Shown here one piece after another: positions 19,444 to 37,042 of a stretch of DNA of 37,042 nt; the first letter of the stretch is position 1; every line of letters starts with the position of its first letter. Below the pieces are notes generated by a model, which saw nothing but the letters and a program-made list of their open reading frames with translations, searched no databases and had not been told where the DNA came from. The DNA comes from an uncultured Lachnospiraceae bacterium (GTDB lineage: Bacteria; Bacillota; Clostridia; Lachnospirales; Lachnospiraceae): the NCBI GenBank assembly GCA_947063675.1, contig CAMSTM010000014.1, forward strand, positions 1 through 37,042. The letters run 5' to 3'. The translations under genes and the position numbers were made by a program.

Positions 19444-20901
19444 ATGAGAAGTAAATGGGTCAACAGGTTAATAGCGTTATCTATGACAGTGGTAATGGCT
19501 GAAAGTATGATTGGCTGTGGTGCCAGGAACGATACTTCATCGGCAACGAATGAGGCAGCGGGTAGTGAAGCCGGAGGAACAGTTGATGATGTAGCCGATA
19601 CATCCGATACAGGAACTGGAGAAACAGAAAATTCCTCAGCTGGTAAGGATGCAGTTACTGTGGTATATAACACAAATAATGGCGATATGGCAAAATGGGA
19701 TTTGGAGGGTTTGTACGATGGGGAAATTAACTGGGTAGGATACTCAGAAAATGAGTTGGATAATAAAATTCTGCTGGAAATGACTACCGGCGCAAAAACT
19801 TTTGATATTGCCATTACACAGGCGGCAGGTGCAAAGCAGTTTGGTTCCCTGGGACTTTTGGAACCGCTTGAACCGTTGGAGGATATGGATGATATTTTCA
19901 AAGGAAATGTGGAACAGCACAGCCTTGGAGATGACCTTTATGGATATCCGCTTACAGGTGACGCGATGATTATGTATGTGAATACAAAAATGTGGGAAGA
20001 GGCTGGATATACAGAAGATGATATTCCCAAAACACTGGAAGAGTATGGGGAGAAAGCAATTCATCTGACAATGGATTCGGCAGGAAAACGTGGGGATGAA
20101 GAAGGGTTTAACAAGAATGACGTAGTACAGTGGGGTACAATGTACATGGGCGGCTCTGTTGTGGGAAATCCCTGGGAACTGGCAACTCTCTCCTATGGCA
20201 ACGGCGCAAAATATATTAAGAAGGATTATAGTAATAATACCTGTGAAGTAGTTTGCAATTCACCGGAAATGGTTGGAACACTTCAGTTTATCAAAGATTT
20301 GGCTGATGCGGGCGCTATGCCGGAAGGATATGTAGGATACGATTATAACGAGGTTGACGCTCAATGGATTAGCGGAAAAATTGGTTTATTTATTAACTGG
20401 CCATATCTTCTGGACCGTTGTTCAGGAACAGAAATGGAAGGAAATGTAAAGGTTTACGGACTGCCTGCAGGTTCAACCGGTAAGAGTGAGTCCTGCCTGG
20501 GCGGATGGTCTGTAAATGTGTTTAAGGATGCCCCTCACAAGGAAGATGCTCTTAAGCTGGCAAAAGCTCTGGCATCTGCTGAGGCTGACTATAACTATTG
20601 CAAACTGCAGGGGTCTTCTACAGCAAGAACGTCAGTTTTGGAAAGACAGAATGAAGAATATAAGGCAGCAGGGGAAGATATTCTTATTGAGGTAAACGAG
20701 GCATATCTTGCGTCTGCATCCGCCGGTGCGGAAATGGATTTGGCACAGACAAATGCTGCCGCAACCGATTGCCAGCAGACAGCGGCTCAGTATATTAATA
20801 TGGCATTAACCGGACAACTATCCTGCCAGGAAGCAATGGACCAGCTTAAAGTCGAACTGGAAGATATTCTGGCAGCAAATGATTATATGCAGGGTAATTG
20901 A
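19444..20901 (+). CDS. ABC sugar transporter substrate-binding lipoprotein
   Basis: This 485-residue extracellular binding protein belongs to the family 1 (MalE-like) carbohydrate class. The signal peptide ends in a lipobox-like SMIGC, so Cys25 would be lipidated. A low-complexity Ser/Thr/Asp/Glu linker (about 26-70) tethers the domain. Typical segments are YGYPLTGDAMIMYVNTKMWEEAGY and LGGWSVNVFKDAPHKEDALKLAKAL. AGGAGG lies eight bases before the ATG. Two permease genes follow. With GH105 and GH4 enzymes in the cluster, the ligand is probably an oligosaccharide or uronic-acid glycoside; this is inference. Confidence 0.9.
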   Translation: MRSKWVNRLIALSMTVVMAESMIGCGARNDTSSATNEAAGSEAGGTVDDVADTSDTGTGETENSSAGKDAVTVVYNTNNGDMAKWDLEGLYDGEINWVGYSENELDNKILLEMTTGAKTFDIAITQAAGAKQFGSLGLLEPLEPLEDMDDIFKGNVEQHSLGDDLYGYPLTGDAMIMYVNTKMWEEAGYTEDDIPKTLEEYGEKAIHLTMDSAGKRGDEEGFNKNDVVQWGTMYMGGSVVGNPWELATLSYGNGAKYIKKDYSNNTCEVVCNSPEMVGTLQFIKDLADAGAMPEGYVGYDYNEVDAQWISGKIGLFINWPYLLDRCSGTEMEGNVKVYGLPAGSTGKSESCLGGWSVNVFKDAPHKEDALKLAKALASAEADYNYCKLQGSSTARTSVLERQNEEYKAAGEDILIEVNEAYLASASAGAEMDLAQTNAAATDCQQTAAQYINMALTGQLSCQEAMDQLKVELEDILAANDYMQGN

Positions 20902-20911
20902 CATAGTAAAC

Positions 20912-20935
20912 GGGGCAGAACTTCGCTTCTGCCCC
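20912..20935 (+). other. Intercistronic hairpin after the binding-protein gene
   Basis: GGGGCAGAA (20912-20920) pairs perfectly with TTCTGCCCC (20927-20935) around a six-base loop. No T-run follows. Such stems after binding-protein genes commonly stabilise the upstream mRNA so that the binding protein outnumbers the permeases. Confidence 0.7.
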
Positions 20936-20963
20936 TTGCTGATAAAACAGGAAATGGTGAGGA

Positions 20964-21884
20964 ATGTTGAATAAAAAATATAAAAAAAGTACTAGACAGA
21001 TAAAAGATGAGAGATTTGGATTTTTCATGTCTCTCCCTTCAATGATATTGCTGGGACTCTTGTTTATATTTCCCATTATATATTCATTTGGCGCCAGTTT
21101 CACTAATTACAGACTGGTGCAGGGAGACCTGAAATTTATTGGATTTGAAAATTATATAAAGGCGTTTACTGATGCAACTTTCTGGAGTTCTGTAAAAATT
21201 ACTTTATTGATTACAGTAGGTGCGTTATTGGTAGAATTCTTTTTTGCGATGCTTCTGTCTGGACTTATTACAAATATCAGAAGGGGACAGGGTGTATTAA
21301 AGACCATCTATTTAATTCCGATGATGGTAGCTCCCACGGTTGCAGGGCTTTTATTCCGTTTTATGCTAAATGATGATTTTGGACTGTTAAATGTAATTTT
21401 AAAGTCTCTTGGGGTCATATCTTCAAACATTCACTGGTTGACAGACAGTAAGATTGCAATTATCAGTATTATTTACGTAGACTCGTGGGCGACGATTCCT
21501 TTTGTTTTTCTTTTACTTTATACAGGGCTTTCTTCCGTGTCGGAGGATGTTGTTGAATCGGGGAAAATTGACGGAGCTAACAGGTTGCAGATTTTCTTCA
21601 GGATACAGATGCCTATTATTAAGCCTACTGTTATTATTGCCCTTGTAATCAGGTTTATGGATGTATTCAGAATTTTCGATTCTATCTATGTACTGACAAA
21701 GGGAGGACCCGGCAAGGCGACCGAATCATTATCTCTTTTGATTTACAGAACAAACTGGAATAAATACAACGTAGGATATGCCTCGGCAATGTCTTACATT
21801 ATGTTGATATTTATGATTATAGTAGCATTATTTATCCAGTATATGGGAAGAGATAAAGACAACTACAGGCGGCGGAAGGGGTAG
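20964..21884 (+). CDS. ABC sugar transporter permease, MalF/UgpA type
   Basis: This inner-membrane permease of 306 residues has six predicted helices, the first around PSMILLGLLFIFPIIYSFG. The cytoplasmic EAA loop that docks the ATPase is present as SGKIDGANRLQIFFRIQMP. It pairs with the next gene to form the channel. It starts 62 bases after the binding-protein gene, across the hairpin, and leaves only four bases before the second permease. No cognate ATP-binding protein gene follows. Confidence 0.92.
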   Translation: MLNKKYKKSTRQIKDERFGFFMSLPSMILLGLLFIFPIIYSFGASFTNYRLVQGDLKFIGFENYIKAFTDATFWSSVKITLLITVGALLVEFFFAMLLSGLITNIRRGQGVLKTIYLIPMMVAPTVAGLLFRFMLNDDFGLLNVILKSLGVISSNIHWLTDSKIAIISIIYVDSWATIPFVFLLLYTGLSSVSEDVVESGKIDGANRLQIFFRIQMPIIKPTVIIALVIRFMDVFRIFDSIYVLTKGGPGKATESLSLLIYRTNWNKYNVGYASAMSYIMLIFMIIVALFIQYMGRDKDNYRRRKG

Positions 21885-21888
21885 AACT

Positions 21889-22710
21889 ATGAGTATACGA
21901 AAATTACGTACTTTTATCATATATTTCATTTTATGTGTGGCTGTTATATTTGTTTTGCTTCCTATTGTATGGCTGGTAATCACGTCATTTAAGCCAAGAG
22001 GGGAAATTTATATGGCTTCCCTTCCCAGCAAGTGGGTGCTAAACTCTTATGTAGAGCTGCTGGAAAATTTTTCTTTTGATTTATATTTTGGAAATTCCCT
22101 GATTGTAGCAGGAGTTACAACAATTTTGGTATGTCTGATTAGTATACCGGCGGCATACGGATTTACCATGTATGGTTTTCCGGGAAGCCGTAATATTTTC
22201 CGGGGCTGCGTATTTTTGAGAATGTTCCCTTTTATCACATTGCTGATTCCGCTGTATATCTACATTTCGAAGTTGGGAATTATGAATACAAAGCTGGCGC
22301 TTATCATAGCGGATACAACCTTCAACCTTCCTATGAGCCTTTGGATTATGGAAGCCTGTTTTGAAGGAATGCCAAGGGAGCTGGTAGACGCGGCGGAGAT
22401 TGATGGAGCTTCCAGGATGAAAACCTTTTTGCAGGTGATTATTCCTGTAGCAAAGCCCTCCATTGCGACAGTGGTAATTTTAACATTTCTGAATGCATGG
22501 AATGAATTTATGTTTGCATTTATCAGTACTTCCAGTGAAAAGGCAAAGACGATTACGGTAGGTATGACTATGCTTACACAGGAAAAGGGAATCCGATGGG
22601 ATTTGATGGCGGCGGCGGGTTCGCTGTATATTATACCTATGTTGATTATTGTAGTGATTTTTCAGAAATCTATTGTGCGCGGTATGACGCTGGGGTCGGT
22701 AAAAGGTTGA
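21889..22710 (+). CDS. ABC sugar transporter permease, MalG/UgpE type
   Basis: This second permease half has 273 residues and six predicted helices. The EAA loop reads DAAEIDGASRMKTFLQVIIP. The C-terminal ending IVRGMTLGSVKG is typical of MalG-type proteins, as is the NAWNEFMFAF segment. It is cotranscribed with the preceding permease and with the oxidoreductase that starts 20 bases later. The ATPase is presumably a shared MsmK/MsmX-like subunit encoded elsewhere. Confidence 0.92.
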   Translation: MSIRKLRTFIIYFILCVAVIFVLLPIVWLVITSFKPRGEIYMASLPSKWVLNSYVELLENFSFDLYFGNSLIVAGVTTILVCLISIPAAYGFTMYGFPGSRNIFRGCVFLRMFPFITLLIPLYIYISKLGIMNTKLALIIADTTFNLPMSLWIMEACFEGMPRELVDAAEIDGASRMKTFLQVIIPVAKPSIATVVILTFLNAWNEFMFAFISTSSEKAKTITVGMTMLTQEKGIRWDLMAAAGSLYIIPMLIIVVIFQKSIVRGMTLGSVKG

Positions 22711-23709: not shown

Positions 23710-24795
23710 ATGGAAAATGCGGTAAAATTTGCAGAATATCTGATGAAAAAATATCCCCAGGCGGATTTATATCCGTACAGAAGCTGGACTTATCCTCAGG
23801 GCTTCTTATTATGGGGATACATCCGGCTTTATGAAAAGACAGGACGGGAAGATTTTTATAACTATATTCTGGCATATTGCCAGGAGCATGTAAATGAAGA
23901 TGGCGAATTATTGGGATACACAGGCATCAGCCTTGATGATATCATGACGGCATCAGTCATTGTATGGGCATGGTCGGTTACAAAAGAAGAAAAATACAGG
24001 ATTGCGGCGAAAAGGGTCAGGGATACCTACGAAACTTATCCGAGAAATCCAGATGGAGGATTCTGGCATGGAAAGGACAGACCCGGGGAAATGTGGGTTG
24101 ACGGATTGTTCATGGGGCTGATGTTTCTTGCAAGATACGGAAAATATATGGGGGACAGTGAATATTGTTTTTCGGAAACAGTAAAGCAGCTTAACATTAT
24201 ATTTGCCAGATGCAGAAAAGACAGCACAGGTCTTTTGTATCATGCCTACAGCGAAGGCGCTCAAGCGGAATGGGCAAACAGGATTACCGGGTGCTCGCCC
24301 GAGATATGGAGCGAGGGACTTGGTTGGTACGCCATGGTTTTGCCGGAGGTGCTGGCGCTTTTGCCGGAAAATTTCCCCGGGCGGGATTCATTAGTGTTTC
24401 AGCTTCAGAGTCTGTGCGCGGACCTTCTAAAGGTGCAGGATGAAGGCTGCGGACTCTGGTATCAGGTTGTGGACAAACCGGGATTCCCCAGAAATTTTCA
24501 TGACACGTCGGGAAGCGCGATGTTTTTATATGCCATGAAAAAATCGTTGGATATGAAACTGATTGAAGGGAATGAATATGAGGAAGCTGTAAAAAAAGCG
24601 TATATCGGAGTTTTATCAAAATGTGTCTGCGGACTGGACGGAGGGTATCATGTTCTTGATGCCTGCAACGGCTTATGTGTTCAGAAGAATTATGATATTT
24701 ATGTGGATTATACAAGAACCGCGGACGCTCAGGAAGCGGTAGTTGCAGTTTTGTGGGCGCTGACAGCCGTAGAAAACGGTACGGATAAACTGTAA
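23710..24795 (+). CDS. GH105 unsaturated rhamnogalacturonyl hydrolase-like protein
   Basis: This 361-residue (alpha/alpha)6-barrel protein belongs to the GH88/GH105 (YteR/YesR) group. Those enzymes hydrate the unsaturated uronic acid left by pectin lyases and so release it from the oligosaccharide. Diagnostic blocks are DDIMTAS, MWVDGLFMGLMFLARYG with the expected catalytic Asp, YHAYSEGAQAEWANRITG and SPEIWSEGLGWYAMVLPEVL. No signal peptide is present, so it works in the cytoplasm on imported oligosaccharides. It is the last gene of the importer operon before the regulator. Confidence 0.87.
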   Translation: MENAVKFAEYLMKKYPQADLYPYRSWTYPQGFLLWGYIRLYEKTGREDFYNYILAYCQEHVNEDGELLGYTGISLDDIMTASVIVWAWSVTKEEKYRIAAKRVRDTYETYPRNPDGGFWHGKDRPGEMWVDGLFMGLMFLARYGKYMGDSEYCFSETVKQLNIIFARCRKDSTGLLYHAYSEGAQAEWANRITGCSPEIWSEGLGWYAMVLPEVLALLPENFPGRDSLVFQLQSLCADLLKVQDEGCGLWYQVVDKPGFPRNFHDTSGSAMFLYAMKKSLDMKLIEGNEYEEAVKKAYIGVLSKCVCGLDGGYHVLDACNGLCVQKNYDIYVDYTRTADAQEAVVAVLWALTAVENGTDKL

Positions 24796-25762: not shown

Positions 25763-27103
25763 ATGAAAGCAAAAGCAATGTCATTATTTTTCGAAGGAAG
25801 AAATGACAGAGAAGTTGAAGAGTATAACCGGCAGTTGGACAGATTGAAAGAAATGTATGCGGATGAAGTGTGTTTTATGGAATCTGTCTGTATAGGCAGT
25901 AAAATAAGTTCTGAAGCAGATATTGTAATCATCCCGCAGCTTTTTGGAGCGGTATTTAAGGAGAGTGAACGGCTGAAGGCCATCCAAAAACCTGTTATGA
26001 TTCTCACATCAGAATTTGGAACGGTGGAGATGTGGGACTGGGAGATTGTGGCATGGCTTCGGGATGAATTGAAGATGAATATATTTTTCCCGTACAACTG
26101 CGAGATTGCAAGAGTAATATTCCGTTCGCTTGCGGCAAAGAAACTGATGGGAAGCGGGATAAAGTTTTTGATGTTTCAGGATGAACCGGGTGAAGGGATG
26201 CAGGCATATCTTTTCAAAAAATTTTACTGGTGGGATAAGAGCTGTACGGAGCTGATGGAAAATGCTTTTGGAATTAAAATCCTGTATAAAAGCTATAAGG
26301 AGCTGAACGAGAGGGCAGACAGCATAGAGGACGAGAGAGCATGGGCTTTGTGGGAAGAACGAAAAACGCCATGTGAGAATGTTTCGGACAGGTGTATTTT
26401 GAAGGCAGTAAAGCTTTATATAGCTGTTAAGGAGGTAATTGACGAAACGGGAGACGTATATGGAGTGGGGTGCAATTGCCTGAACGAATCCTTCCATTCC
26501 TGCACAACACCATGTCTGGCATGGAATTGGATTTTTGAGTATGACCATATTATCTGGGCGTGTGAGGGCGATACCATTACAATGCTGAGTAAATTCATGC
26601 TGTATACGGCTTTAAAAAAGCCTATGATGATGACAAATATTTATCCGTTTTTGATTGGAATGGCAGCCTTAAAACATGAAAAAATAAGTGAATTTCCGCA
26701 GATTGATGACCCGGATAATCATGCGCTTGGGGTTCATTGCGGATATTTCGGGTTTGCACCCGAAAGCTTTTGCAGCAGATGGGTTATGAGGCCGAAGATA
26801 TTGGAGATTGTAAATGATGATGCAATTGTGATAGACTGTGAGATGGAAAAGGGAAAAATAACTATGGCAAAGGTTCGCCCGGACATGAAGAAAATAACAA
26901 TAATCGAAGCGGAAATAGAGGATTATGTTCAGTACCCGGGAAGCGACTGCAGGAACGGCGCACTGATTCGTTACAGAAATAACAGTGGACATAAGGTTAT
27001 GGAAAGTCTGTCCTCTCATCATGCGATTTTAATTCAGGGTGATGTTACCCATCTTCTGGTACAGATGGCAAGAGTTTATGGAATTGAGTGGGAAGTTGTG
27101 TGA
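25763..27103 (+). CDS. L-fucose/L-arabinose isomerase-like protein
   Basis: This 446-residue protein shares the layout of the fucose-isomerase fold: an N-terminal Rossmann-like half (ADIVIIPQLFGA, PVMILTSEF) and a C-terminal half rich in metal-site residues. Glu242 in NCLNES, Glu268/Asp270 in ACEGD and His419/His420 in SSHHAIL are spaced like the metal-binding Glu-Asp-His set of FucI. Known FucI proteins are longer (about 590 residues), so this belongs to the shorter, mostly uncharacterised branch. Probable role: aldose-ketose isomerisation of an unusual sugar; some relatives may have other functions. It starts the second operon, with GNAT and Gfo/Idh genes downstream. Confidence 0.7.
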   Translation: MKAKAMSLFFEGRNDREVEEYNRQLDRLKEMYADEVCFMESVCIGSKISSEADIVIIPQLFGAVFKESERLKAIQKPVMILTSEFGTVEMWDWEIVAWLRDELKMNIFFPYNCEIARVIFRSLAAKKLMGSGIKFLMFQDEPGEGMQAYLFKKFYWWDKSCTELMENAFGIKILYKSYKELNERADSIEDERAWALWEERKTPCENVSDRCILKAVKLYIAVKEVIDETGDVYGVGCNCLNESFHSCTTPCLAWNWIFEYDHIIWACEGDTITMLSKFMLYTALKKPMMMTNIYPFLIGMAALKHEKISEFPQIDDPDNHALGVHCGYFGFAPESFCSRWVMRPKILEIVNDDAIVIDCEMEKGKITMAKVRPDMKKITIIEAEIEDYVQYPGSDCRNGALIRYRNNSGHKVMESLSSHHAILIQGDVTHLLVQMARVYGIEWEVV

Positions 27104-27749: not shown

Positions 27750-28820
27750 ATGAAGGCAAAATTTGTTGTTATCGGGTACGGATGGAGAGCGGATTTTTTT
27801 TACCGTATTGCGAGAGCGCTGCCGGAGAAGTTTGAGGTTTGTGCGGGCGTTTTGCGTACAGAAGAAAGGGCCGGACAGGTAGCGAAAGAGAAGGGGATTT
27901 TTGCAACGGCAAATCTGGAAGAGGCGCTGGCGACAGAGCCTGATTTTGCAGTATTGTGTGTGCCCCGGGCAATTGTAAAGGAATATCTGTACCGGCTTAT
28001 GGAAAAGAAAGTGCCGGTACTATGTGAAACGCCGCCGGGGCAGAATACAGAGGAGCTGTGTGAACTCTGGGCGGAGACACAGCTGAAGAATGGGCAGGTG
28101 CAGGTGGCAGAGCAATATTTTCTTCAGCCTTATTATGCAGCGGTGGCGGAGGTAATAAGGGCCGGATATCTGGGAGAAGTGTCAAACGTTACGTTGTCAG
28201 CCCTTCATGGCTATCATGCTGTCAGTATGTTTCGGAGGATATTGGGGGTTGGATTTGAGAATTGCACAATTAAAGGGCAGAAGTTTTCTTTTGAAGTGAC
28301 TGCTACAAACAGCAGGAAAGGTTTTGATTACAGTGGGAAGGTTTTGACAGATGACAGAACAATCGCAACTCTGGAATTTGCAAATGGAAAAACAGCATTT
28401 TTCGATTTTTCAGGAGAACAGTATTTTTCACTTATTCGTACCCGAAGATGGAATATTCAGGGGATAAGGGGGGAAATTAATAATAATACTGTAAGGTTTC
28501 TGACAGAAAAAAATCTCCCTGTAGAGCAGACTTTAAAAAGGATGGATGTGGGCGTAAATAATAATAAGGAATGGGCGCACAGAGGAATCATGTTTCTGGA
28601 CAGTATGGTTTATGAGAATCCCTTTTATCCAGCGCGGCTGAATGATGATGAGATTGCCGTGGCCTCATCTCTTAAGGCGATGAAAGAGTATGTGGAAACA
28701 GGAAAAGAATTCTATCCGCTTAAAGAGGCTCTTCAGGATACCTATCTGTCATTTGCCATGGAAGAAGCAACAGAGGACGGAGAAACTGTTATCACCAAAA
28801 CACAGGCATGGGCGTTATAA
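27750..28820 (+). CDS. Gfo/Idh/MocA family protein with substituted catalytic lysine
   Basis: This 356-residue protein has the N-terminal NAD(P)-binding fold (FVVIGYGWRADFFYRI, with one fewer Gly than the norm) and a Gfo/Idh-type C-terminal domain. At the catalytic position the usual EKP reads CETPPG, so Thr94 replaces the lysine. The fold shows IRAGYLGEVSNVTLSALHGYH and an NDDEIAVASSLKAMKEY tail. Loss of the lysine suggests altered chemistry, a non-redox role or a different base. It ends eight bases from the convergent deoR gene; no terminator separates them apart from a tiny GCTTATTTAAGC palindrome. Confidence 0.82.
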   Translation: MKAKFVVIGYGWRADFFYRIARALPEKFEVCAGVLRTEERAGQVAKEKGIFATANLEEALATEPDFAVLCVPRAIVKEYLYRLMEKKVPVLCETPPGQNTEELCELWAETQLKNGQVQVAEQYFLQPYYAAVAEVIRAGYLGEVSNVTLSALHGYHAVSMFRRILGVGFENCTIKGQKFSFEVTATNSRKGFDYSGKVLTDDRTIATLEFANGKTAFFDFSGEQYFSLIRTRRWNIQGIRGEINNNTVRFLTEKNLPVEQTLKRMDVGVNNNKEWAHRGIMFLDSMVYENPFYPARLNDDEIAVASSLKAMKEYVETGKEFYPLKEALQDTYLSFAMEEATEDGETVITKTQAWAL

Positions 28821-28828
28821 AGGCTTAT

Positions 28829-29620
28829 TTAAGCGAAAACGGTCTGCATGGAGTCCTGTAATTCCTCCAGATAACGGCGGGATTCGGGAGCAATCTGAGA
28901 ATCGGTTATCAGCTTGTCAACGTCATGCAGGCCGGCAAATTTAACGAAACTGATTTTACCGATTTTGCTGCTGTCGCATAGGACAATTTTTTCCACAGCA
29001 GATTTCAGCATTGCCTTTTTAACTTCCGCCTGATTCATGTCCGGGGTCATAAAACCTTTATCCGGTGAAAAAGCATTGGTGGCAAGAAAAACTTTATCAA
29101 TATTTAAGGAAGTCAGGGTTGATAAGGTTATGGGACCGACAGTGCATTGCTGTCGTCTCCTTAAATTGCCGCCAAGTACTATAATATTTGCGTTGCTGTT
29201 TTGTTCAAGGAACAGTGCGATATTTAAATCATTGACAACAACGGTTAAGTTCCTTTTTTTCACAAGCATTTTCGATAATTCCATCATCGTGCTTCCGGCA
29301 TCTATGGCTATGGTATCGCCGTCTTCCACAATCTCAGCTGCAAGTCTGGCAATCGCCTGTTTTTTTTCTGCATTGCAGATTTTTTTATCGTCTGTTGAAG
29401 GCTCAAATAAGGTTTGTCTGATTGGAATCGCTCCGCCGTGGGTTCTCTTTAAACGGCCTTTGGAAGCAAGTTCACGCAAATCACTGCGGATAGTTGCAGG
29501 CGAAACCTGAAAATGTTCGCATAATTCCGGAACCAAAAGTTTTGTATTTTTGTTAAGTAAAGTGACAATCTGTTCTTGTCTCTCTTCTGCAAATAAGGGT
29601 TGATTTTCTGTCTGTTTCAT
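28829..29620 (-). CDS. DeoR family transcriptional regulator
   Basis: This 263-residue repressor has an N-terminal winged helix (RQEQIVTLLNKNTKLLVPEL, then FQVSPATIRSDLRELASKG and RLKRTHGGA, the DeoR signature). The C-terminal sugar-phosphate sensor domain shows DTIAIDAGSTMMELSKML, VVVNDLNIALFLEQ and VLCDSSKIGKISFVKF. AAAGGAAA precedes the start at good spacing. It is divergent from the GH4 operon. The shared 16-mer places both flanking operons, and its own promoter, under its likely control. The effector is probably a phosphorylated sugar made by the neighbouring kinase. Confidence 0.92.
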   Translation of the reverse strand: MKQTENQPLFAEERQEQIVTLLNKNTKLLVPELCEHFQVSPATIRSDLRELASKGRLKRTHGGAIPIRQTLFEPSTDDKKICNAEKKQAIARLAAEIVEDGDTIAIDAGSTMMELSKMLVKKRNLTVVVNDLNIALFLEQNSNANIIVLGGNLRRRQQCTVGPITLSTLTSLNIDKVFLATNAFSPDKGFMTPDMNQAEVKKAMLKSAVEKIVLCDSSKIGKISFVKFAGLHDVDKLITDSQIAPESRRYLEELQDSMQTVFA

Positions 29621-29671
29621 AAAAATATTTCCTTTGAATAGCCGTTATATAAGTGCTTCCCTATATTTACC

Positions 29672-29700
29672 AGAATATCATATATTCTTTATCAAGTCAA
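29672..29700 (-). promoter_or_regulatory. Sigma-A promoter for deoR
   Basis: On the minus strand TTGACT (29695-29700) is followed after 17 bases by TATTCT (29672-29677). A near copy of the shared operator, AAATAACAATAAA (29699-29711), abuts the -35. Confidence 0.7.
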
Positions 29701-29734
29701 ATAACAATAAATGAATTGTAAAAAATAATAAACA

Positions 29735-29762
29735 TTGACAAATAATAATAATAATATATAAT
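29735..29762 (+). promoter_or_regulatory. Sigma-A promoter for the GH4-glycyl radical operon
   Basis: TTGACA (29735-29740), a 16-base AAT-repeat spacer and TATAAT (29757-29762). The leader is about 40 bases with an AAAGGAG ribosome site. Confidence 0.78.
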
Positions 29763-29774
29763 AAATAACATAAA
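29759..29774 (+). promoter_or_regulatory. Shared 16-mer operator candidate, copy 2
   Basis: TAATAAATAACATAAA overlaps the end of the -10 and is identical to the element at 25716-25731. A repressor bound here would block polymerase. DeoR is the obvious candidate. Confidence 0.55.
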
Positions 29775-29806
29775 GAGAAAGTAAACAATAAGAAAGGAGA
29801 AATAAA

Positions 29807-31171
29807 ATGGCAAAAATTGTATTGTTGGGGGCGGGAAGTACATCATTTTCAATAGAATTGTTGAAGGATATATCTACACTGCCGTCGCTTGAGGGAAGTG
29901 TATTATCTTTGGTGGATATTGATGAACACCGTCTTCACATGGCAGAATCACTGGTAACAAGATACTGCAGGGAATCAAATATGAAGCTGGAGGTTCATTC
30001 CTATACGGAGAGAAGGGATGCGCTGAAAGGAGCGGAATATGTTATCTGCGCGGTAAAAATCGGAGGATACGGGCCGCTGGAGAAGGAAAGGGAAATTGCA
30101 GAGAAAAGAGGTTTTTACCGGGGAATAGGTGACAGAGTGTCCTGCTACTATGGCGGGATTGGCGCTTATCATCAGATACGTTTTCTTGAGGAAGTTGCAA
30201 AGGATATGGAAGAACTATGTCCTGATGCCTGGCTGGTGCAGACTGCAAATCCGGTTTTTGAGGGAACGAATTATGTGACAAAGCATTTCGGCATAAAGGC
30301 GGTAGGGGTTTGCCACGGGCATAATGCATACAAAGAAATTGCCGAAGAACTTGGTCTTGATTTACAATTTGTTAATGCCGAAGTGGTGGGATTTAATCAC
30401 TGTGTCTGGCTGACAAAATTCCTGTACAAAGGAAAGGACGCTTATCCGCTGCTTGACAAATGGATTGAAGAAAAGTCGGAAGAATACTGGAAAAGCGAGA
30501 AATATATGGACCCGAACAGGGTGTTTTCCAAAGACCAGCTCTCTCCGGGGGCAATTGAAGCGTACCGCCTGTATGGTGTAATGCCGATAGGAGATGCGGT
30601 TCGTTCCGGAACACCCTGGTGGACGCATACGGATTTTGAAACGAAATGCAAGTGGTATGGAAAAAACGGCGGCTTTGATTCAGAGATTGGATGGAAAAGT
30701 TATCTGGATTCCAAGGTGGATATTCAGGAACGTCTGAATGAAATTGTGGAATCCGGTAAATCTGTAATGGAGGAGTATCGTCCGTCAGAAACCACGGAAC
30801 AGCACATACCGTTTATTGATTCTATGGCCAATGGAAATGAAAGGATTCTGACTTTGAATGTTCCGAATAAGGGAGCAATTGAAGGGCTGCCTGATGACAT
30901 TCTGGTAGAGATTCCGGTTCTATGTAATGCCACGGGAATCCATAATGTGCAGATAGGTAAGCTTCCTTACAAGGTAATGAACCATGTAATTCTTCCAAGA
31001 CTGGCAAGGGCTCAGAGCATCATAGATGCCTATGAGAACCACAGCCGAGAAATGCTTATTTTAATGTTGTGTGAGGACCAGAGAACGAAGTCCTATGAGC
31101 AGGCAAAGGCATTGGTGGATGAACTTTTGGCTCAGCCGTGGAATAAGGATGCGGATGCTCACTATTTATAA
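29807..31171 (+). CDS. GH4 family glycosidase, possibly alpha-galacturonidase
   Basis: GH4 enzymes hydrolyse glycosides by an unusual NAD- and metal-dependent mechanism that transiently oxidises C3. The 454-residue product opens with the NAD motif VLLGAGSTSF. It has QTANPVFEGTNYV, then Cys169 in VGVCHGHN and His198 in GFNHCVW as the expected metal ligands. The CHG tripeptide matches the signature reported for the LplD alpha-galacturonidase group, rather than CHS (alpha-glucosidase or alpha-galactosidase) or CHE (alpha-glucuronidase). A GH105 enzyme in the same cluster agrees with a galacturonic acid substrate, but this is inference. It is first in the third operon. Confidence 0.85.
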   Translation: MAKIVLLGAGSTSFSIELLKDISTLPSLEGSVLSLVDIDEHRLHMAESLVTRYCRESNMKLEVHSYTERRDALKGAEYVICAVKIGGYGPLEKEREIAEKRGFYRGIGDRVSCYYGGIGAYHQIRFLEEVAKDMEELCPDAWLVQTANPVFEGTNYVTKHFGIKAVGVCHGHNAYKEIAEELGLDLQFVNAEVVGFNHCVWLTKFLYKGKDAYPLLDKWIEEKSEEYWKSEKYMDPNRVFSKDQLSPGAIEAYRLYGVMPIGDAVRSGTPWWTHTDFETKCKWYGKNGGFDSEIGWKSYLDSKVDIQERLNEIVESGKSVMEEYRPSETTEQHIPFIDSMANGNERILTLNVPNKGAIEGLPDDILVEIPVLCNATGIHNVQIGKLPYKVMNHVILPRLARAQSIIDAYENHSREMLILMLCEDQRTKSYEQAKALVDELLAQPWNKDADAHYL

Positions 31172-31186
31172 TACTGAAGGGTTGAC

Positions 31187-31221
31187 AGGAGGATGTCCCG
31201 AAAGAAGAGACATCCTTCTTT
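31187..31221 (+). terminator. Possible attenuating hairpin between the GH4 and kinase genes
   Basis: GGATGTC (31191-31197) pairs with GACATCC (31209-31215) and the stem extends to about 11 pairs with one G-U. A short TTCTTT follows. It could lower expression of downstream genes. Confidence 0.5.
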
Positions 31222-31243
31222 AAAGTTACAAGGAGGTGAATCC

Positions 31244-32749
31244 GTGAAATATTTAATAGGAGTTGATATCGGAACACAGGGGACGAAAGCGGCGCTGTAT
31301 GATGAGAATATGACTTTAGCCGGAACCGCCTTTTGTGAATCCAATCTGATTATGTCTGATACAGGAGGAATCTGGCAGGAAGCGGATGAAATTTACCGTT
31401 CGGTGATTTTAAGCATCAGGCAGCTTGTCTCTGAGTCGGGGGTATCCGGAAGATGCATAGAAGGAATCGGTATAGATTCCCAGATGGCCGGGATTATGGG
31501 AATTGACAGAGACGGTGAGGCTGCTACGTACTTTGATTCCTGGTTGGATACCAGATGCGGGAAATATGTAGATTTTATGGAAAAAACGGCCGGAGAAAGA
31601 GTTACCCGTATTACAGGAAGTCCGGTATCCTACGCCCATGGGCCTAAAATCCTGTGGTGGAAAAATGAGCATCCCGAAATTTATAAAAAGGTATGCAAGT
31701 TTGTTTTGCCCCATGCTTATGTGACCGGGAAACTGGCCGGCATAAAAGGCGGGGACGCCTATATGGATTATACCTGTATTCAGTATTCCGGTTTCGGCGA
31801 TAATCAGGCAAAAAGCTGGTCGGAAGAACTGCTTGCTGACTTTAAGGTGGAAAAAGAAAAAATGCCGCAAATTGTTTCGCCTTTTGAGATAGCCGGCCGG
31901 CTGAAGAAGGAAGCGGCTTTGCTTTGCGGCCTTAAGGAAGGGACTCCCATAGTAGCGGGGGCCGGGGATACGGCATCTTCCATATTTGGCGCAGGTCTTT
32001 TTCAGAAAGGTACCATTCTGGACTGTGCGGGAACGGCTTCTGTTTTGTGCAGCGTGGTGGATGAGTATAAACCGGACATTAATAACAGGACTATGATGAT
32101 GATGCGCTCTCCGATAGATGGGCTGTGGTATCCTCTGGCATATATCAGCGGCGGAGGATTGTGTCTCAGATGGCTGCGCAACCTTTTTCCGGGAACGGCC
32201 TATGAAGATTTGGAGAGAGAGTCAAAAGAGATAGAAGCAGGCAGTGAAGGGCTTATTTTCGTGCCTCATTTTGAAGGAAGAGTTCTGCCCAATAATCCCA
32301 ATGTGAAAGGGAGTTTTACCGGCCTTAACTGGCGGCATCAAAGGGGGCATATGTATCGGGCGGTGATGGAGGGCATAGCCTATGAATACCACTATTATCA
32401 GAGCGTTTTAAGGCAGTTATATCCCGAGAACACTTTTCAGAAGATGTGGGCAATCGGCGGCGGCGCAAAGTCGGAGCTTTTCCTGAAAATCAAAGCGGAT
32501 GTAATGAATGCGGAAATATCTTCGTTTGAAATGGGAGATACGGCGCTCACCGGAATTGCAGTTATTGCCGGTATGGGAATCGGAATGATAAAAGATTATG
32601 AGAAAATAATTGAAGGAAACCGTCAACTGAGGTGGAAGTATGCGGCAGGAGACGATGGGACAGATAATTCTGAAAGGTACGGGAGACTTGCGGAAAGGTA
32701 TCTTCAGGTGATGGAGAGCCTTGGCTCCGTTTATAAGGAAAGATGGTGA
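31244..32749 (+). CDS. FGGY family carbohydrate kinase (xylulokinase-like)
   Basis: This 501-residue sugar kinase has the FGGY actin-like two-domain fold. It begins with the phosphate loop YLIGVDIGTQGTKAALYD. The catalytic region GIGIDSQMAGIMGIDRDG, then SWLDTRC, is followed by the adenosine segment GAGDTASSIFGAG and a C-terminal GGGAKSELFLKIKADVM. The sequence is closest in feel to XylB, but FGGY kinases change substrate readily. I chose GTG 31244: AGGAGGTGA lies just upstream, whereas the ATG at 31193 sits inside the hairpin. It likely phosphorylates the sugar or polyol made upstream, and the product may be the DeoR effector. Confidence 0.88.
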   Translation: MKYLIGVDIGTQGTKAALYDENMTLAGTAFCESNLIMSDTGGIWQEADEIYRSVILSIRQLVSESGVSGRCIEGIGIDSQMAGIMGIDRDGEAATYFDSWLDTRCGKYVDFMEKTAGERVTRITGSPVSYAHGPKILWWKNEHPEIYKKVCKFVLPHAYVTGKLAGIKGGDAYMDYTCIQYSGFGDNQAKSWSEELLADFKVEKEKMPQIVSPFEIAGRLKKEAALLCGLKEGTPIVAGAGDTASSIFGAGLFQKGTILDCAGTASVLCSVVDEYKPDINNRTMMMMRSPIDGLWYPLAYISGGGLCLRWLRNLFPGTAYEDLERESKEIEAGSEGLIFVPHFEGRVLPNNPNVKGSFTGLNWRHQRGHMYRAVMEGIAYEYHYYQSVLRQLYPENTFQKMWAIGGGAKSELFLKIKADVMNAEISSFEMGDTALTGIAVIAGMGIGMIKDYEKIIEGNRQLRWKYAAGDDGTDNSERYGRLAERYLQVMESLGSVYKERW

Positions 32750-32753
32750 TGAA

Positions 32754-33785
32754 ATGACAAACGAAAAAGGGATGGAAAAAACGATAGGTATTTGTCTGAT
32801 TGGAGCCGGCAGGGCCGGTATGATACATGCCAGAAATTTTGCATCAAGAGTGCCTTATGCAAAAATGACGGCTATAGCAGATACAGTGGAAGAAATGGCG
32901 AAAGCGGCGGCTGACGAGCTTAAGGCAGAATTTTACACAACAGATTACAGAGAAGCGCTTAATAGAGACGATGTAGACGCTGTGGTAGTGGTTACGCCTA
33001 CAAAGTACCATGTTGACGTGGTAGTGGCTGCGGCACAGGCAGGAAAGCATATATTCTGCGAGAAGCCTATGGCAATGAATAAGGAAGAATGCGAAAAGAT
33101 GATTGAAGCAGCCAGGGCTAACGGCGTAAAGCTTCAGATAGGCTTTATGAGAAGATTTGACGAGAATTTCCGCCGTGCCAAAAAGATGATTGAAGACGGG
33201 GAAATCGGCGATGTGGTGACGGTAAAATCCCTTACCCACGGACCCAGCACACCAAGAGAATGGATGTATGATATTGAAAAGAGCAATGGGCCGCTGGCGG
33301 AAGTGAACAGTCATGATATTGATACAGTCCGCTGGCTTACAGGAGGAGAAGCCGATTATTTATATGCTATGGCTGGAAATTTCCGATGTGAGGAAGCCAG
33401 AAAAAATTATCCTGACTTCTACGATACGGTTATGATGAATATCAGGATGAATAACGGATGCATTGTTAATATTGACGGAGCACAGGGTGTGCAATATGGA
33501 TATGACGCGAGGGTCGATGTGGTAGGAACCAAAGGGATTATCCAAATAGGCGATTTGAAACAGGGAACCACATTGTCGTATACAAAAGACGGTATGAAAG
33601 GGGCAGTAGTAAAAAGCTGGACGGATTTATTTTCAGAGGCCTATTTAAATGAGGATATCAGCTTTATCCGGTCTATTATGGAGGATAAAGAGCCGGAAGT
33701 AACGGGTTGGGACGGAATGAAAGCGGTTGAAATCGTAAAGGCAGGAAACGAATCCATCCGAACCGGACAAATAGTAAAGTTATAA
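32754..33785 (+). CDS. Gfo/Idh/MocA dehydrogenase, inositol 2-dehydrogenase-like
   Basis: This 343-residue NAD-dependent dehydrogenase is of the IolG type. It has the Rossmann motif CLIGAGRAGMIHARNF, the catalytic FCEKPMAMN with Lys104, and EVNSHDIDTVRWLTGG, which supplies the Asp-His pair. It keeps all usual active-site residues, unlike the protein at 27750. Possible substrates include inositols and related cyclic or linear sugars; no other iol gene is present, so I do not call it iolG. The gene begins five bases after the kinase stop, at ATG 32754, the first good start following GGTGATG. Confidence 0.88.
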   Translation: MTNEKGMEKTIGICLIGAGRAGMIHARNFASRVPYAKMTAIADTVEEMAKAAADELKAEFYTTDYREALNRDDVDAVVVVTPTKYHVDVVVAAAQAGKHIFCEKPMAMNKEECEKMIEAARANGVKLQIGFMRRFDENFRRAKKMIEDGEIGDVVTVKSLTHGPSTPREWMYDIEKSNGPLAEVNSHDIDTVRWLTGGEADYLYAMAGNFRCEEARKNYPDFYDTVMMNIRMNNGCIVNIDGAQGVQYGYDARVDVVGTKGIIQIGDLKQGTTLSYTKDGMKGAVVKSWTDLFSEAYLNEDISFIRSIMEDKEPEVTGWDGMKAVEIVKAGNESIRTGQIVKL

Positions 33786-33851
33786 ATAAGGTGATATAGA
33801 AACAAGGTGGCATTGCTGTGACAGATGCGGAACTGGAATGGAGGAAAACAA

Positions 33852-34892
33852 ATGAAAGCAGCACGAATGTATGGAGTGAATGATATTCGGGTAGAGGAAT
33901 GTGCAATACCTCAAATCGGCCCGGACGAAATCTTACTGAAAGTAAAGGCGGCGGCAATCTGCGGTACGGATTTGCGCATGATTCAAAACGGAGACAAACG
34001 TATTGACAGGGAACACCCCAGGATTCTTGGCCATGAGATAAGCGGAATTATTGATGCTGTGGGAGAAAAAATAACCCGTTATCAAAAGGGGATGCATGTC
34101 TGTCTTGCGCCTAATATGGGATGCGGGGTATGCAATCAGTGTGTATCGGGCAACACCCATCTGTGTAACGACTATCAGGCCTTTGGCATTAATATCGACG
34201 GAGGATTTGCGGAGTATATGCGGATTCCTGCAGAAGCGGCAGCACAGGGAAATCTGATGGTTATCAATGAAAATGTAGATTTTGGGGAAGCGGCGCTGCT
34301 CGAACCGGCGTCCTGTGTAATGAACGGGCAGAGCAGAGTAAATATCCGTTTAAATGACACGGTTCTGGTGATTGGGGCAGGGCCTATCGGGCTGATGCAC
34401 GCGCTTATTGCAAAGGCTTCCGGTGCCGGCAGAGTATACATGCGGGATTTGTCTGAAGAAAGACTGCGTCAATGCACGGAAGTAGATGATGATTTGATTC
34501 CGGTATACGGCCGGAACCTTCTGGAGCAGATTATGGATTTCACCGGCGGAAAAGGGGTGGATGTCTGTATTGTGGCATGTCCATCCGGGCAGGCACAGGC
34601 GGAATCTTTGGAACTGATGGCGATGAACGGAAGAATCTTATTTTTCGGCGGGCTGCCTCAGGGAAAAGATATGGTTTCGCTGCCCAGTAATTTGATTCAT
34701 TACAGGCAGCTTTCAATTTGTGGCTCTACGCGGGCAAATGTCGAGCAGTACAGAAGTGTGGCGGACATGGTCGGAAACGGACGTCTTAATATGAAAAAAA
34801 TCATATCAGGGAGGTATGCTCTGGAAGATATAGAGGATGCGCTTACATATGCAAAAAGCGGAAAGGGTCTAAAGACAGTAATTGAATTTTAA
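33852..34892 (+). CDS. Zinc-dependent medium-chain dehydrogenase (sorbitol/threonine type)
   Basis: This 346-residue NAD-dependent polyol or alcohol dehydrogenase shows CGTDLRM (catalytic zinc Cys), GHEISG (catalytic zinc His and Glu) and a structural-zinc cysteine series in GCGVCNQCVSGNTHLC. The Rossmann motif is VLVIGAGPIGLMHALIA. GGAGGAAAACAA precedes ATG 33852, so I rejected the upstream ATG at 33825. It belongs to the sorbitol, L-threonine and galactitol dehydrogenase branch. It sits directly before the glycyl radical pair, so it may supply or consume a carbonyl compound in that step. Confidence 0.88.
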   Translation: MKAARMYGVNDIRVEECAIPQIGPDEILLKVKAAAICGTDLRMIQNGDKRIDREHPRILGHEISGIIDAVGEKITRYQKGMHVCLAPNMGCGVCNQCVSGNTHLCNDYQAFGINIDGGFAEYMRIPAEAAAQGNLMVINENVDFGEAALLEPASCVMNGQSRVNIRLNDTVLVIGAGPIGLMHALIAKASGAGRVYMRDLSEERLRQCTEVDDDLIPVYGRNLLEQIMDFTGGKGVDVCIVACPSGQAQAESLELMAMNGRILFFGGLPQGKDMVSLPSNLIHYRQLSICGSTRANVEQYRSVADMVGNGRLNMKKIISGRYALEDIEDALTYAKSGKGLKTVIEF

Positions 34893-34910
34893 GCATGGAG
34901 GATGCTGCTG

Positions 34911-35837
34911 TTGGAACTGTTAATTACAAATATTCAGAGAACCTCTTTCCATGACGGTCCGGGTATACGTACTACAGTTTTTTTGAAGGGGTGTTCTTTA
35001 CGCTGCTTTTGGTGTCATAATCCGGAAACGCTCCATATGGGCAGCGTGCTTCGTTATGTTGATTCGCGCTGTATCCATTGTGGGATGTGTACAGCAGTAT
35101 GCCGGGAGATTTCCGGTCTGGACAGCCTGCATTCTCCTGAAGATTTGGTGAAGTATGCGGGGAGTCAGGAAATCTGTGCAGAATGTATTCGATGCACAAA
35201 CCTGTGTCCGGCCGGGGCGATAACTTTCACAGGCCGGAAGTATGGAGTGGACGAACTTATTCCCTTACTGCTGGCAGATAGGGATTACTATGCATGCAGC
35301 GGCGGAGGGGTGACGTTTTCAGGCGGGGAGCCCTTGCTTCAGGCTGAAGGTCTGTCATATGTTATGGACAGGCTCAAAGCGGAAGGGATATCCATAGCCG
35401 TGGATACTGCAGGAAATGTTCCGTGGGAAGCATTTCAAAAGGTACTGAACAAGACAGATTTATTTCTGTTTGATTTAAAGACGGCAGATTCTAAGCTGCA
35501 CCGGAAAGTTACGGGAAGCTCTAACGGACTTATACTGGAAAACCTTGGAAAGCTTTACCGGGCGGGAGCGACTGTCAGGATTCGTATTCCGCTGATACCT
35601 GGAGTTAATACATCGCTGGAAGAACAGGAAAAGATTTCGGAAATTCTATGTGTATATCCGGGAGTGGAAGAGGTGGAGCTGCTCCCGTTCCATCGTGTTG
35701 CTTTGTCAAAATACCGACAGTTGGGAATGGATTATCAGGCTGCCGGGTTAGAACCTCCTGACAGGCTGACTTTGCAGCAAATAGAGAGGAATATGAAGAA
35801 GAGGCTTTCAGTTCCGGTACTTTGCCGGGGACTGTAA
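34911..35837 (+). CDS. Glycyl radical enzyme activating enzyme (radical SAM)
   Basis: This 308-residue activase uses S-adenosylmethionine and a [4Fe-4S] cluster to create the glycyl radical on its partner. Radical SAM cysteines are Cys28, Cys32 and Cys35 (GCSLRCFWC). A ferredoxin-like insert adds two Cys sets (54/57/60/64 and 89/92/95/99), as in activases of non-PFL glycyl radical enzymes; the PFL activase lacks it. SGGEPLLQ contacts SAM. I chose TTG 34911: GGAGG (34897-34901) then has a nine-base spacer, while ATG 34902 begins immediately after it. The partner gene follows by 51 bases. Confidence 0.93.
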   Translation: MELLITNIQRTSFHDGPGIRTTVFLKGCSLRCFWCHNPETLHMGSVLRYVDSRCIHCGMCTAVCREISGLDSLHSPEDLVKYAGSQEICAECIRCTNLCPAGAITFTGRKYGVDELIPLLLADRDYYACSGGGVTFSGGEPLLQAEGLSYVMDRLKAEGISIAVDTAGNVPWEAFQKVLNKTDLFLFDLKTADSKLHRKVTGSSNGLILENLGKLYRAGATVRIRIPLIPGVNTSLEEQEKISEILCVYPGVEEVELLPFHRVALSKYRQLGMDYQAAGLEPPDRLTLQQIERNMKKRLSVPVLCRGL

Positions 35838-35888
35838 AGATTTCAGATTTGTTTTGCGGAAAAAGCTGTACAGGAAAGGATATTATGT

Positions 35889-37042
35889 ATGATGATGAAA
35901 GACGGGTTGACTAAGCGGGTTCAGTTGGTACTTAGCGGTATCTCAAAAGAGGAGCCGGCGGCTTCAACACAGGATTTTTTATCTCTCTGGGAAAAAAGCG
36001 GGGAACAGGAAGATGATACTGTTTACCGTCGGGGAAAGTTTTTCAGGTTTTGTATGGGACAGATTGTAACACCTGTCTACGATAATGAAATAATTGTCGG
36101 GGATTTCCCTTACAGAGAATGGGATTGTAATTGCTGCTGTCTGCCCGATACTATATCAACGGAAGAACGAGAACTGGCGTTTACGGAAGCCAGGCGGGAA
36201 TTTCTGGAACGCTCGAAGTTGAAAAAAGTACCGGATTTTGAGAAATGGGATGAAGTATTTTGGGGTGGAATAAACTTCGGACATGTAATTGTAGACTATG
36301 CGAAGGTGCTGCAGGTTGGATTTGGTGGATTGGAAAAAGAGATTGAAAAGCGGTTGGAGGATTCAAATCTGGAAGCAGGACAGCGAAGTTTTCTTTGTTC
36401 CGCCAGGGAAACCGTTTTAGGCTGTGAACTTTTGATTCGCAGATATGGTGAAGAGGCATTGCGGTTGGCAGAAACTGCCGAATCGGGACGGGCCGGAGAA
36501 CTGCGGGAGATAGGGAGTGTGTGTAAGCGTATTGCCGAGCAGCCGGCTTCCGGTTTTCGGGAGGCGGTGCAGCTGATATGGTTCGTTCAGCTTCTTTTGG
36601 AGATTGAGTCCGGGGCATCGGCATTTTCCTATGGCAGGATGGACCAGTATTTATATCCTTTTTATCAAAAGGATGTGGAAAGCGGACGTCTGACAAAGGA
36701 TGATGCTCAGGAACTGATTGATTTGTTATGGCTGAAAAACTGGCGGTATCCGTCCAGAATGTCTGACCCGGGGCGGGCTGTCAGTCTGGGCGGGATGCTT
36801 CCCGACGGAACAGATGGCGTTAATTCTCTTACCTATCTGATGCTTAATGCAACCCGTAGACTGAAAATTTTTCAGCCTAAGCTTAATGCACGTATATGGA
36901 ACGGCGCGCCGGATGAATATGTCGAAGCCTGTGTCCTGACGGCACAGGAAAACTGTGGTCCTATGTTTTACTGTGATGAGGTTTCCATTGCAGCAGGTAT
37001 TTTCGTATATTTCTTAATTGTCTCGTCTATGGAAAAAAAGTC
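35889..37042 (+). CDS. Glycyl radical enzyme (PFL/dehydratase superfamily), 5' part only
   Basis: This is the activase's partner; 384 codons are visible and no stop is reached before the edge. Superfamily blocks are NEIIVGDFPYREW, a Cys-rich CNCCCLPD, FGHVIVDYAKVLQVGFGGL, GFREAVQLIWFVQLLLEIESG, YGRMDQYLYPFYQKDV, and GGMLPDGTDGVNSLTYLM, then GPMFYCDE. The catalytic Cys and the C-terminal Gly-radical loop lie beyond the visible part, so the reaction cannot be assigned. The ferredoxin-bearing activase argues against pyruvate formate-lyase. AGGAAAGGA precedes ATG 35889 by eight bases. The last 14 codons (after DEVSIAA) no longer resemble the family and may be an edge artefact or real divergence. 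Confidence 0.88.
   Translation, partial: MMMKDGLTKRVQLVLSGISKEEPAASTQDFLSLWEKSGEQEDDTVYRRGKFFRFCMGQIVTPVYDNEIIVGDFPYREWDCNCCCLPDTISTEERELAFTEARREFLERSKLKKVPDFEKWDEVFWGGINFGHVIVDYAKVLQVGFGGLEKEIEKRLEDSNLEAGQRSFLCSARETVLGCELLIRRYGEEALRLAETAESGRAGELREIGSVCKRIAEQPASGFREAVQLIWFVQLLLEIESGASAFSYGRMDQYLYPFYQKDVESGRLTKDDAQELIDLLWLKNWRYPSRMSDPGRAVSLGGMLPDGTDGVNSLTYLMLNATRRLKIFQPKLNARIWNGAPDEYVEACVLTAQENCGPMFYCDEVSIAAGIFVYFLIVSSMEKK

Follow-up and report, generated by a model that had tools for sequence, protein, structure and literature searches.

The stretch of DNA analysed here, called the window, comprises 37,042 nucleotides of an uncultured Lachnospiraceae genome (contig CAMSTM010000014.1, hereafter C14) and ends in a sugar operon whose last gene encodes a glycyl radical enzyme (GRE). 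This raises the question of which reaction the GRE performs and on which compound. Many abundant gut GREs have no known function, according to the part of PMC11574389 consulted. The motifs of the present GRE lead us to predict a 1,2-elimination by an eliminase-type enzyme of a rare subfamily that matches no named GRE member. Given the lack of such a match, we suggest that this oxygen-sensitive enzyme probably detaches a group from some sugar-derived compound.

Organization of the operon

A preliminary description, drawn from the sequence alone, had placed six genes in one packed unit, and each was found where it had been placed, on one strand and with short gaps (Table 1). By ORF coordinates, the gaps in the series GH4, FGGY, IolG-like, zinc dehydrogenase, activase and GRE are 21, -29, 39, 9 and 51 bases. 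The assignments of all six products likewise stood in Pfam and NCBIfam searches, the GRE as a protein similar to pyruvate formate-lyase (PFL). The promoter-like site preceding the operon is the only perfect one among 15 such sites in 28700-37042, where shuffled sequence gives a mean of 14.5 sites. An ortholog of the divergent DeoR-type regulator, 89% identical, precedes the GH4 operon in the related genome G036.

Table 1. Features of the window and of contig C136 that bear on the GRE operon
Feature	Position	Strand	Evidence
Sugar ABC importer (binding protein, two permeases)	19444..22710	+	Named from translations
GH88/GH105-type unsaturated uronyl hydrolase	23710..24795	+	Glyco_hydro_88, 269 bits
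446-aa protein	25763-27103		No family match
DeoR-type regulator, divergent	28829..29620	-	Pfam DeoRC and HTH_DeoR
Promoter-like site TTGACA-16-TATAAT	29735..29762	+	12/12 consensus matches; precedes operon
GH4 glycosidase, AglA-like	29807..31171	+	Pfam, 152 bits; CHGH motif
FGGY sugar kinase	31193..32749	+	Pfam and NCBIfam
IolG-like Gfo/Idh/MocA dehydrogenase	32721..33785	+	Best NCBIfam model IolG, 293 bits (below cut-off of 355)
Zinc-dependent dehydrogenase	33825..34892	+	Pfam ADH_N and ADH_zinc_N
Radical SAM GRE activase	34902..35837	+	TIGR02494, 318 bits (above cut-off of 174)
GRE, N-terminal part ending just ahead of the Cys loop	35889..36995	+	PFL-like (Pfam), 217 bits; homologous to ortholog
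Contig-end bases differing from ortholog	36996..37042	+	No second copy in genome
GRE, C-terminal part	Contig C136, 8847 to about 9947	-	Matches the same 746-aa ortholog

The best PDB match of the GH4 glycosidase is the alpha-glucosidase AglA (1obb, 370 bits), which we take to be the enzyme of Thermotoga maritima. The two align over nearly their full length and have the CHGH motif in common, but the present protein falls below the AglA equivalog cut-off of NCBIfam (440 of 650 bits). The top PDB matches of the IolG-like protein are inositol dehydrogenases, and the zinc-dependent dehydrogenase scored under the cut-offs of the NCBIfam models for threonine 3-dehydrogenase and IolM. The activase translation contains CX3CX2C and ferredoxin-type cysteine motifs with Fer4-type Pfam matches, part of them below cut-off.

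The preliminary description had further combined these genes with a GH105 enzyme, an importer and an isomerase-like protein nearby. The hydrolase, as a GH88-type protein, and the importer (orthologs in G036 at 82-95%) were upheld, but the isomerase-like label was not: searches of Pfam, NCBIfam and the PDB yielded nothing for the 446-aa protein beyond PDB rows at E 0.08, which are chance. Similarly, the proposed lack of uronate genes is true only locally, because a uxaC piece (446 bits) is present on contig C37; a genome search for UxuA, the other uronate enzyme sought, gave nothing. The family-library search covered part of the window's ORFs.

A GRE gene on two contigs

The GRE gene overruns the end of C14, its homologous part being followed by 47 bases unlike the ortholog. 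The part sought beyond position 37042 was located on contig C136, and the Cys and Gly loops could be read. The C14 and C136 halves are 73% and 76% identical, respectively, to one 746-aa ortholog in G036, with whose residues 4-372 the N-terminal half aligns. Each contig end carries about 50 bases unlike this ortholog, and about 10 codons are absent between the halves. These features could mean that the gene was broken by an insertion in the source strain and that the operon functions without its GRE, as in G036. We consider this doubtful, as the remaining reading frame is open and another GRE gene likewise seems to be split by contig ends. In addition, no further copy of the end sequences was found elsewhere in the assembly, whereas a mobile element present in several copies, with its flanks assembled, would be expected to leave some. 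Such an element was rejected on this ground; some other insertion may have occurred.

Motifs and class of the enzyme

Membership in the GRE family rests on a mid-protein catalytic Cys (GCYE) and a partner radical SAM activase. The glycine loop reads RVTGY on C136 and in both full-length orthologs (from G036 and G013), the catalytic Gly occurs at its column in all 83 compared GREs, and the beta-1 histidine is retained. RVXG[FWY] is given as the GRE fingerprint in the portion of PMC11528403 available to us. The Cys loop, C-Y-E, is the CXE motif of GRE eliminases, in which the motif is conserved and the Glu contacts a substrate hydroxyl, as far as the consulted sections of two papers go (PMC7077986; PMC8473560). 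The motif is widely shared, since Glu stands at that column in 74 of the 83 GREs; Tyr as the middle residue was seen in two, both from the present subfamily.

The claim that the operon ends in a GRE named by no curated model was thus sustained. All listed NCBIfam GRE models scored the whole G036 ortholog below cut-off: TIGR01774 ranked first (458 of 678 bits), HypD, at 393 of 1100 bits, led the equivalogs once the general model is set aside, and CutC gave 350 of 1050 bits. Pyruvate formate-lyase was rejected on the score of TIGR01255 (135 of 994 bits) and on a Cys-Tyr in place of the Cys-Cys pair, which is C418/C419 in PflB (PMC12338860, seen in part).

The two GRE relatives form an isolated lineage, the stem of which (1.81 changes per column) is the longest inner branch among 39 tree rows. 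A genome-contig scan with the N-terminal half recovered other GREs alone, at 13 loci and 28-37% identity, and a plasmid search yielded 37 records, all below 60% identity and at 30-34% in the yardstick rows. Part of the ortholog searches scored at most two candidates per genome, and therefore an ortholog in a GRE-rich genome could be missed. No description of the subfamily was found in the GRE literature surveyed, mostly openly accessible and largely covered by listing, nor did a literature search return a paper joining a GRE with GH4 and GH105.

Comparison with known GREs

The preliminary description had offered as an alternative a fucose/rhamnose route in which the GRE would be a B12-independent glycerol or 1,2-propanediol dehydratase. 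Such dehydratases (1r8w, 5i2a) are the best PDB matches (1r8w, 390 bits with the G036 ortholog) and have the fold family, CXE Cys loop, glycine loop and beta-1 histidine in common with the present GRE. However, H281, S282 and D447 of glycerol dehydratase (numbering per the 1r8w alignment), which we take to be substrate-contact residues, are replaced by S, A and M, not only in the two full-length relatives but also in the pieces from the window and from C136. The triad occurs in 19 of the 83 GREs, including the genome's own canonical diol-dehydratase-type GRE on contig C56, to which the G036 ortholog is 31% identical. A pocket segment has 17 instead of 27 residues, and a common clade with diol dehydratases received p 0.03. 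The alternative was rejected because the pocket residues and this stretch of about 10 residues are absent, and we regard it as very improbable indeed.

HypD, the trans-4-hydroxy-L-proline dehydratase, is likewise an eliminase with CXE, and a common clade with it was not rejected (p 0.52). It differs from the present GRE in the pocket, where Ser occupies the Asp278 position and a deletion removes the segment with Asp339/Phe340 (our own numbering from the 6vxc alignment; roles of Asp278 and Asp339 from the part of PMC7077986 consulted). No proline genes were noticed near the present GRE.

YbiW and PflD, which convert anhydrohexitol 6-phosphates into 1-deoxyfructose 6-phosphate (PMC12441222, in the part available), share the sugar-polyol setting and the eliminase features. 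By analogy, the present GRE might open or deoxygenate an anhydro-sugar or cyclic polyol without phosphorylation. The subfamily lies outside the YbiW/PflD group in the tree, although a common clade was not rejected for YbiW (p 0.078) or PflD (p 0.113). In contrast to these enzymes, the operon has FGGY kinases and no PTS gene, the surroundings of the Cys loop differ and identity is 29-31%, which makes this reading quite improbable.

Genomic context in related genomes

This GH4 was found in 3 of 194 related genomes (E <= 1e-90) and the GRE in the same three, with all candidates scored in the rows shown; the three belong to one genus and represent few independent events. This co-occurrence links an orphan GRE to one particular glycosidase, and candidate substrates are therefore narrowed to products of small alpha-glycosides. 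The arrangement nevertheless varies. Activase and GRE close the GH4 operon in the source genome, and G013 has GH4, activase and GRE directly one after another. In G036, the order is GH31, a DUF6259 protein, activase and GRE, whereas orthologs of the GH4, FGGY, IolG and zinc dehydrogenase genes stand without an adjoining GRE; therefore, GH4 may not feed the GRE. Homologs of the FGGY, IolG and zinc dehydrogenase genes in G136 (46-53%) also lack an adjoining GRE. The GREs of G013 and G036 are 48% identical, a range below the threshold separating most functionally distinct GREs in the portion of PMC11528403 consulted, and the three GREs may therefore not share a substrate.

A single fixed route made up of the nearby genes was thus not supported. 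Of two signs said to speak against an unassigned radical enzyme, a variable neighbourhood was observed, but tight clustering with a known class was not. Neighbourhoods of five other GRE lineages (L029, L030, L033, L036 and L039) had no recognised shared context beyond an activase in L030 and L036.

Downstream of the GRE, C136 carries genes for an SMP-30-type protein, a XylB-like kinase, a dehydrogenase, a GPI-cupin and an AroE-like protein, and then a phospho-lactonase-like PTE, a KDPG aldolase and a 2-hydroxyacid dehydrogenase. This order could suggest a dehydratase of aldonate- or uronate-derived sugar acids that feeds the KDPG aldolase in an Entner-Doudoroff-like route, in keeping with a GH88/GH105-type gene close by in G000 and G013 and with the presence of another, different GRE at the G051 SMP-30 locus. 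In the stretches fetched, however, a GRE accompanies 3 of 10 SMP-30 loci (G000, G013 and G051) and is missing from the other seven. The one-route reading is weakened because the cluster occurs without the GRE, whole in G022 and G036 and partial in G074 and G136. Moreover, 186 bases containing a promoter-like site separate the GRE from the cluster (two such sites there, matching the shuffled mean of 1.9), and the G013 locus has a DeoC-type aldolase and no KDPG aldolase. We therefore consider the sugar-acid route improbable. As to the uronic-acid glycoside considered in the preliminary description, the evidence points both ways: the nearest match of the GH4 is an alpha-glucosidase, AglA, whereas a GH88-type hydrolase and a KDPG aldolase are encoded nearby.

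Proposed role of the GRE

The landmark residues, the partner activase, the single gene run and the co-occurrence with AglA-like GH4 are consistent with an eliminase-type GRE, switched on by its activase, that acts on an alpha-glycoside breakdown product, the activase-GRE pair being a movable module. We give this reading slightly less than an even chance. The ABC importer would take up an alpha-glycoside, which GH4, or GH31 in G036, would cleave. Once switched on by the activase encoded directly upstream, the GRE would use its thiyl radical to abstract a hydrogen at a hydroxylated carbon of a cleavage product, for which the non-sugar part or a small polyol or hydroxy acid is the likeliest candidate. 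The CXE glutamate would accept the hydroxyl proton and the adjacent group would depart, leaving a carbonyl product (aldehyde or ketone) for reduction by a local dehydrogenase, of the zinc type in the source genome and of the iron type in G013. The activase-GRE pair would have been inserted into differing glycosidase operons.

A more specific version, in which the eliminase, its pocket remodelled, would act on the GH4 or GH31 product and the mobile pair would supply a plug-in deoxygenation step, is possible but unlikely. If true, it would add a substrate class without an assigned GRE in the literature, as far as the portions consulted extend. The shortened pocket segment offers a structural handle on the change of substrate, and G036 supplies an intact 746-aa ortholog suited to expression.

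The operon and its split enzyme gene

The source is a draft genome (3.74 Mb, 272 contigs), of which the window is one whole contig, C14. The six-gene operon ending in a glycyl radical enzyme (GRE), as proposed in the preliminary description, is borne out: the genes share a strand, are packed nearly end to end and matched their families, and a perfect promoter-like site (TTGACA-16-TATAAT) precedes the run. A DeoR-type regulator gene is divergent from the operon.

The GRE reading frame leaves the contig. Five PFL-like matches were found in the genome, and the C-terminal piece on contig C136 was taken as the rest of the gene because a single 746-aa GRE of the related genome G036 matches C14 in its first part (73%) and C136 in its last part (76%). 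The pieces were kept apart, and no joined sequence was used. The Cys loop (GLIGCYEMAVPGKECGNPMGG) and the glycine loop (VRVTGYSAYF) are both on C136. About 50 bases at each contig end are unlike the G036 ortholog, about 10 codons are absent between them, and a search of the rest of the genome found no second copy of the end sequences; the odd bases reflect either assembly trouble or a real insertion. Another GRE gene appears to be split over the ends of contigs C237 and C61 (end of L008, start of L007), at nearly the same point in the protein.

Features of the window and of related loci
Location	Feature	Observation
C14, from 29807	GH4, FGGY kinase, IolG-like dehydrogenase, zinc dehydrogenase, GRE activase, GRE	one strand, nearly gapless
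C14, 25763-27103	446-aa protein	no match in Pfam, NCBIfam or PDB; G036 counterpart 85% conserved, between GntR and SMP-30 genes
L006:687-8660	SMP-30-type (SMP30), XylB-like FGGY kinase, zinc dehydrogenase, GPI-cupin, AroE-like, PTE-like lactonase, KDPG aldolase, 2-hydroxyacid dehydrogenase (2HADH)	kinase above cut-off; AroE-like match weak
L040+L041 (G036 C44, 31532-33163)	543-aa protein matching DUF6259	between GH31 and activase
L142:6765-9119 (genome G051)	different GRE, loops ACWEF and VRVWGWSGYF	under cut-offs of listed NCBIfam GRE models; accompanied by activase, ureidoglycolate-lyase-like and xylose-isomerase-like proteins, beside SMP-30, FGGY and DeoC genes
L116:3797-7172	GRE and activase pair	plasmid-borne

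Enzyme class and active-site pocket

Two papers give the CXE motif of the Cys loop as a mark of GRE eliminases (PMC7077986; PMC8473560), and because of this motif the window GRE was grouped with them. The glutamate is common to 74 of the 83 GREs compared, and thus CXE settles the broad class only. Against the general NCBIfam GRE model (cut-off 678), the full-length relatives in genomes G036 and G013 reached 458 and 456 bits, and against equivalogs of characterised GREs (cut-offs at least 994) at most 393 bits; no curated model names the subfamily, as judged from these two. The X of CXE is Tyr in two of the 83, both of this subfamily, and Thr precedes the glycine-loop Gly in three. The window GRE is an orphan of the eliminase class, a distinct subfamily in a real operon.

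Residues H281, S282 and D447 of glycerol dehydratase, a triad kept in 19 of the 83 GREs, including the genome's own C56 enzyme, give way to Ser, Ala and Met, both in the two relatives and in the C14 and C136 pieces. Further, the beta-2 to beta-3 stretch spans 17 residues in the relatives versus 27 or 28 in 77 of the 83 (other odd lengths are three short unassigned rows of 17, 13 and 13, and one of 36), and the window's own half is equally short. HypD Asp339 and Phe340, pocket residues according to PMC7077986, fall in the part missing here (alignment to 6vxc, numbering by our own count). By sequence, the replaced triad and shortened stretch point to a rebuilt pocket.

In a 39-row tree the relatives form a lineage of their own, with a stem 1.81 changes per column long; L039, a lone Lentisphaeria GRE, was left out of that tree. 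In the 83-row tree they pair with full support, join L039 (support 0.93) and fall with it within a nine-row group of unassigned GREs (support 0.97). Common clades with HypD (p 0.52), PflD (p 0.113) and YbiW (p 0.078) were unrejected, and one with diol dehydratases was weakly rejected (p 0.03).

Distribution and gene neighbourhoods

Among 194 relatives, the N-terminal GRE half matched 13 genomes (E <= 1e-40), but a match over the entire half, with at least 41% identity, was confined to the source genome, G036 and G013; in the remaining ten it covered about residues 123 to 369 (38-42%), as expected of other GREs. Overlapping order, phylum and family samples (392, 398 and 397 genomes; at most two candidates scored per genome) gave, own genome aside, matches of only 32-39%; G013 and G036 are missing from these matches, being outside the samples or unscored. 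A GH4 search (E <= 1e-90) with equal settings and set size returned the same three genomes, the genome lists being uncompared item by item. If three carriers fell at random among about 37 genus members (own genome plus G001-G036, a count inferred from the genome handles), they would coincide with the GRE's three with a probability of 1 in 7770; shared descent lowers the real weight of this. In G036, GH4 and GRE sit on separate contigs and still co-occur. We read this as a functional link, short of proof.

The gene order in G013 (59% complete) is GH4-activase-GRE-importer-iron dehydrogenase-GH88/GH105-Gfo-zinc dehydrogenase-SMP30-FGGY-DeoC. In G036, contig C44 carries importer-GH31-DUF6259 protein-activase-GRE, and alpha-xylosidases take the top four places among the PDB matches to the GH31. 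The DUF6259 match is borderline (29.4 versus 28.7 bits), and its protein is perhaps another glycosidase. G036 contig C159 has DeoR-GH4-FGGY-IolG-zinc dehydrogenase, 75-94% identical to the window genes, without a GRE behind, and continues with importer, GH88/GH105, SMP30 and the KDPG-aldolase cluster. The activase-GRE pair thus resembles a module that is gained and lost. Their identity to G036 (72-76%) lies at or under the low end of the neighbours' range (GH4 94, IolG 87, zinc dehydrogenase 80, FGGY 75%), which would fit separate movement, short of proof; G+C content is unremarkable.

A gap of 186 bases, which holds a promoter-like site, separates the GRE from the SMP30-to-2HADH cluster downstream, found whole or in part in G022, G036, G074 and G136. 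The cluster is regarded as a neighbour because of this gap and site and because it stands alone in other genomes. The same observations speak against a sugar-acid route, in which the GRE would be a dehydratase feeding the KDPG aldolase; this route is kept alive by the GREs adjoining three of ten SMP-30 loci, one of which (G051: CWE, RVWGW) is of another class. The full new uronate route proposed earlier is unsupported as stated.

Proposed mechanism

Landmark residues, activase, gene run and co-occurrence were observed, and the steps that follow are a proposal. The ABC importer would take up a glycoside, to be cleaved by GH4; the GRE Cys radical would abstract a hydrogen, the CXE glutamate would deprotonate with loss of a neighbouring group, and the carbonyl product would then be reduced.

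Plasmids from Acinetobacter towneri and Moraxella osloensis carry a further GRE and activase pair, although an oxygen-sensitive enzyme is unusual in such hosts; in A. towneri a six-bladed beta-propeller gene lies behind it.
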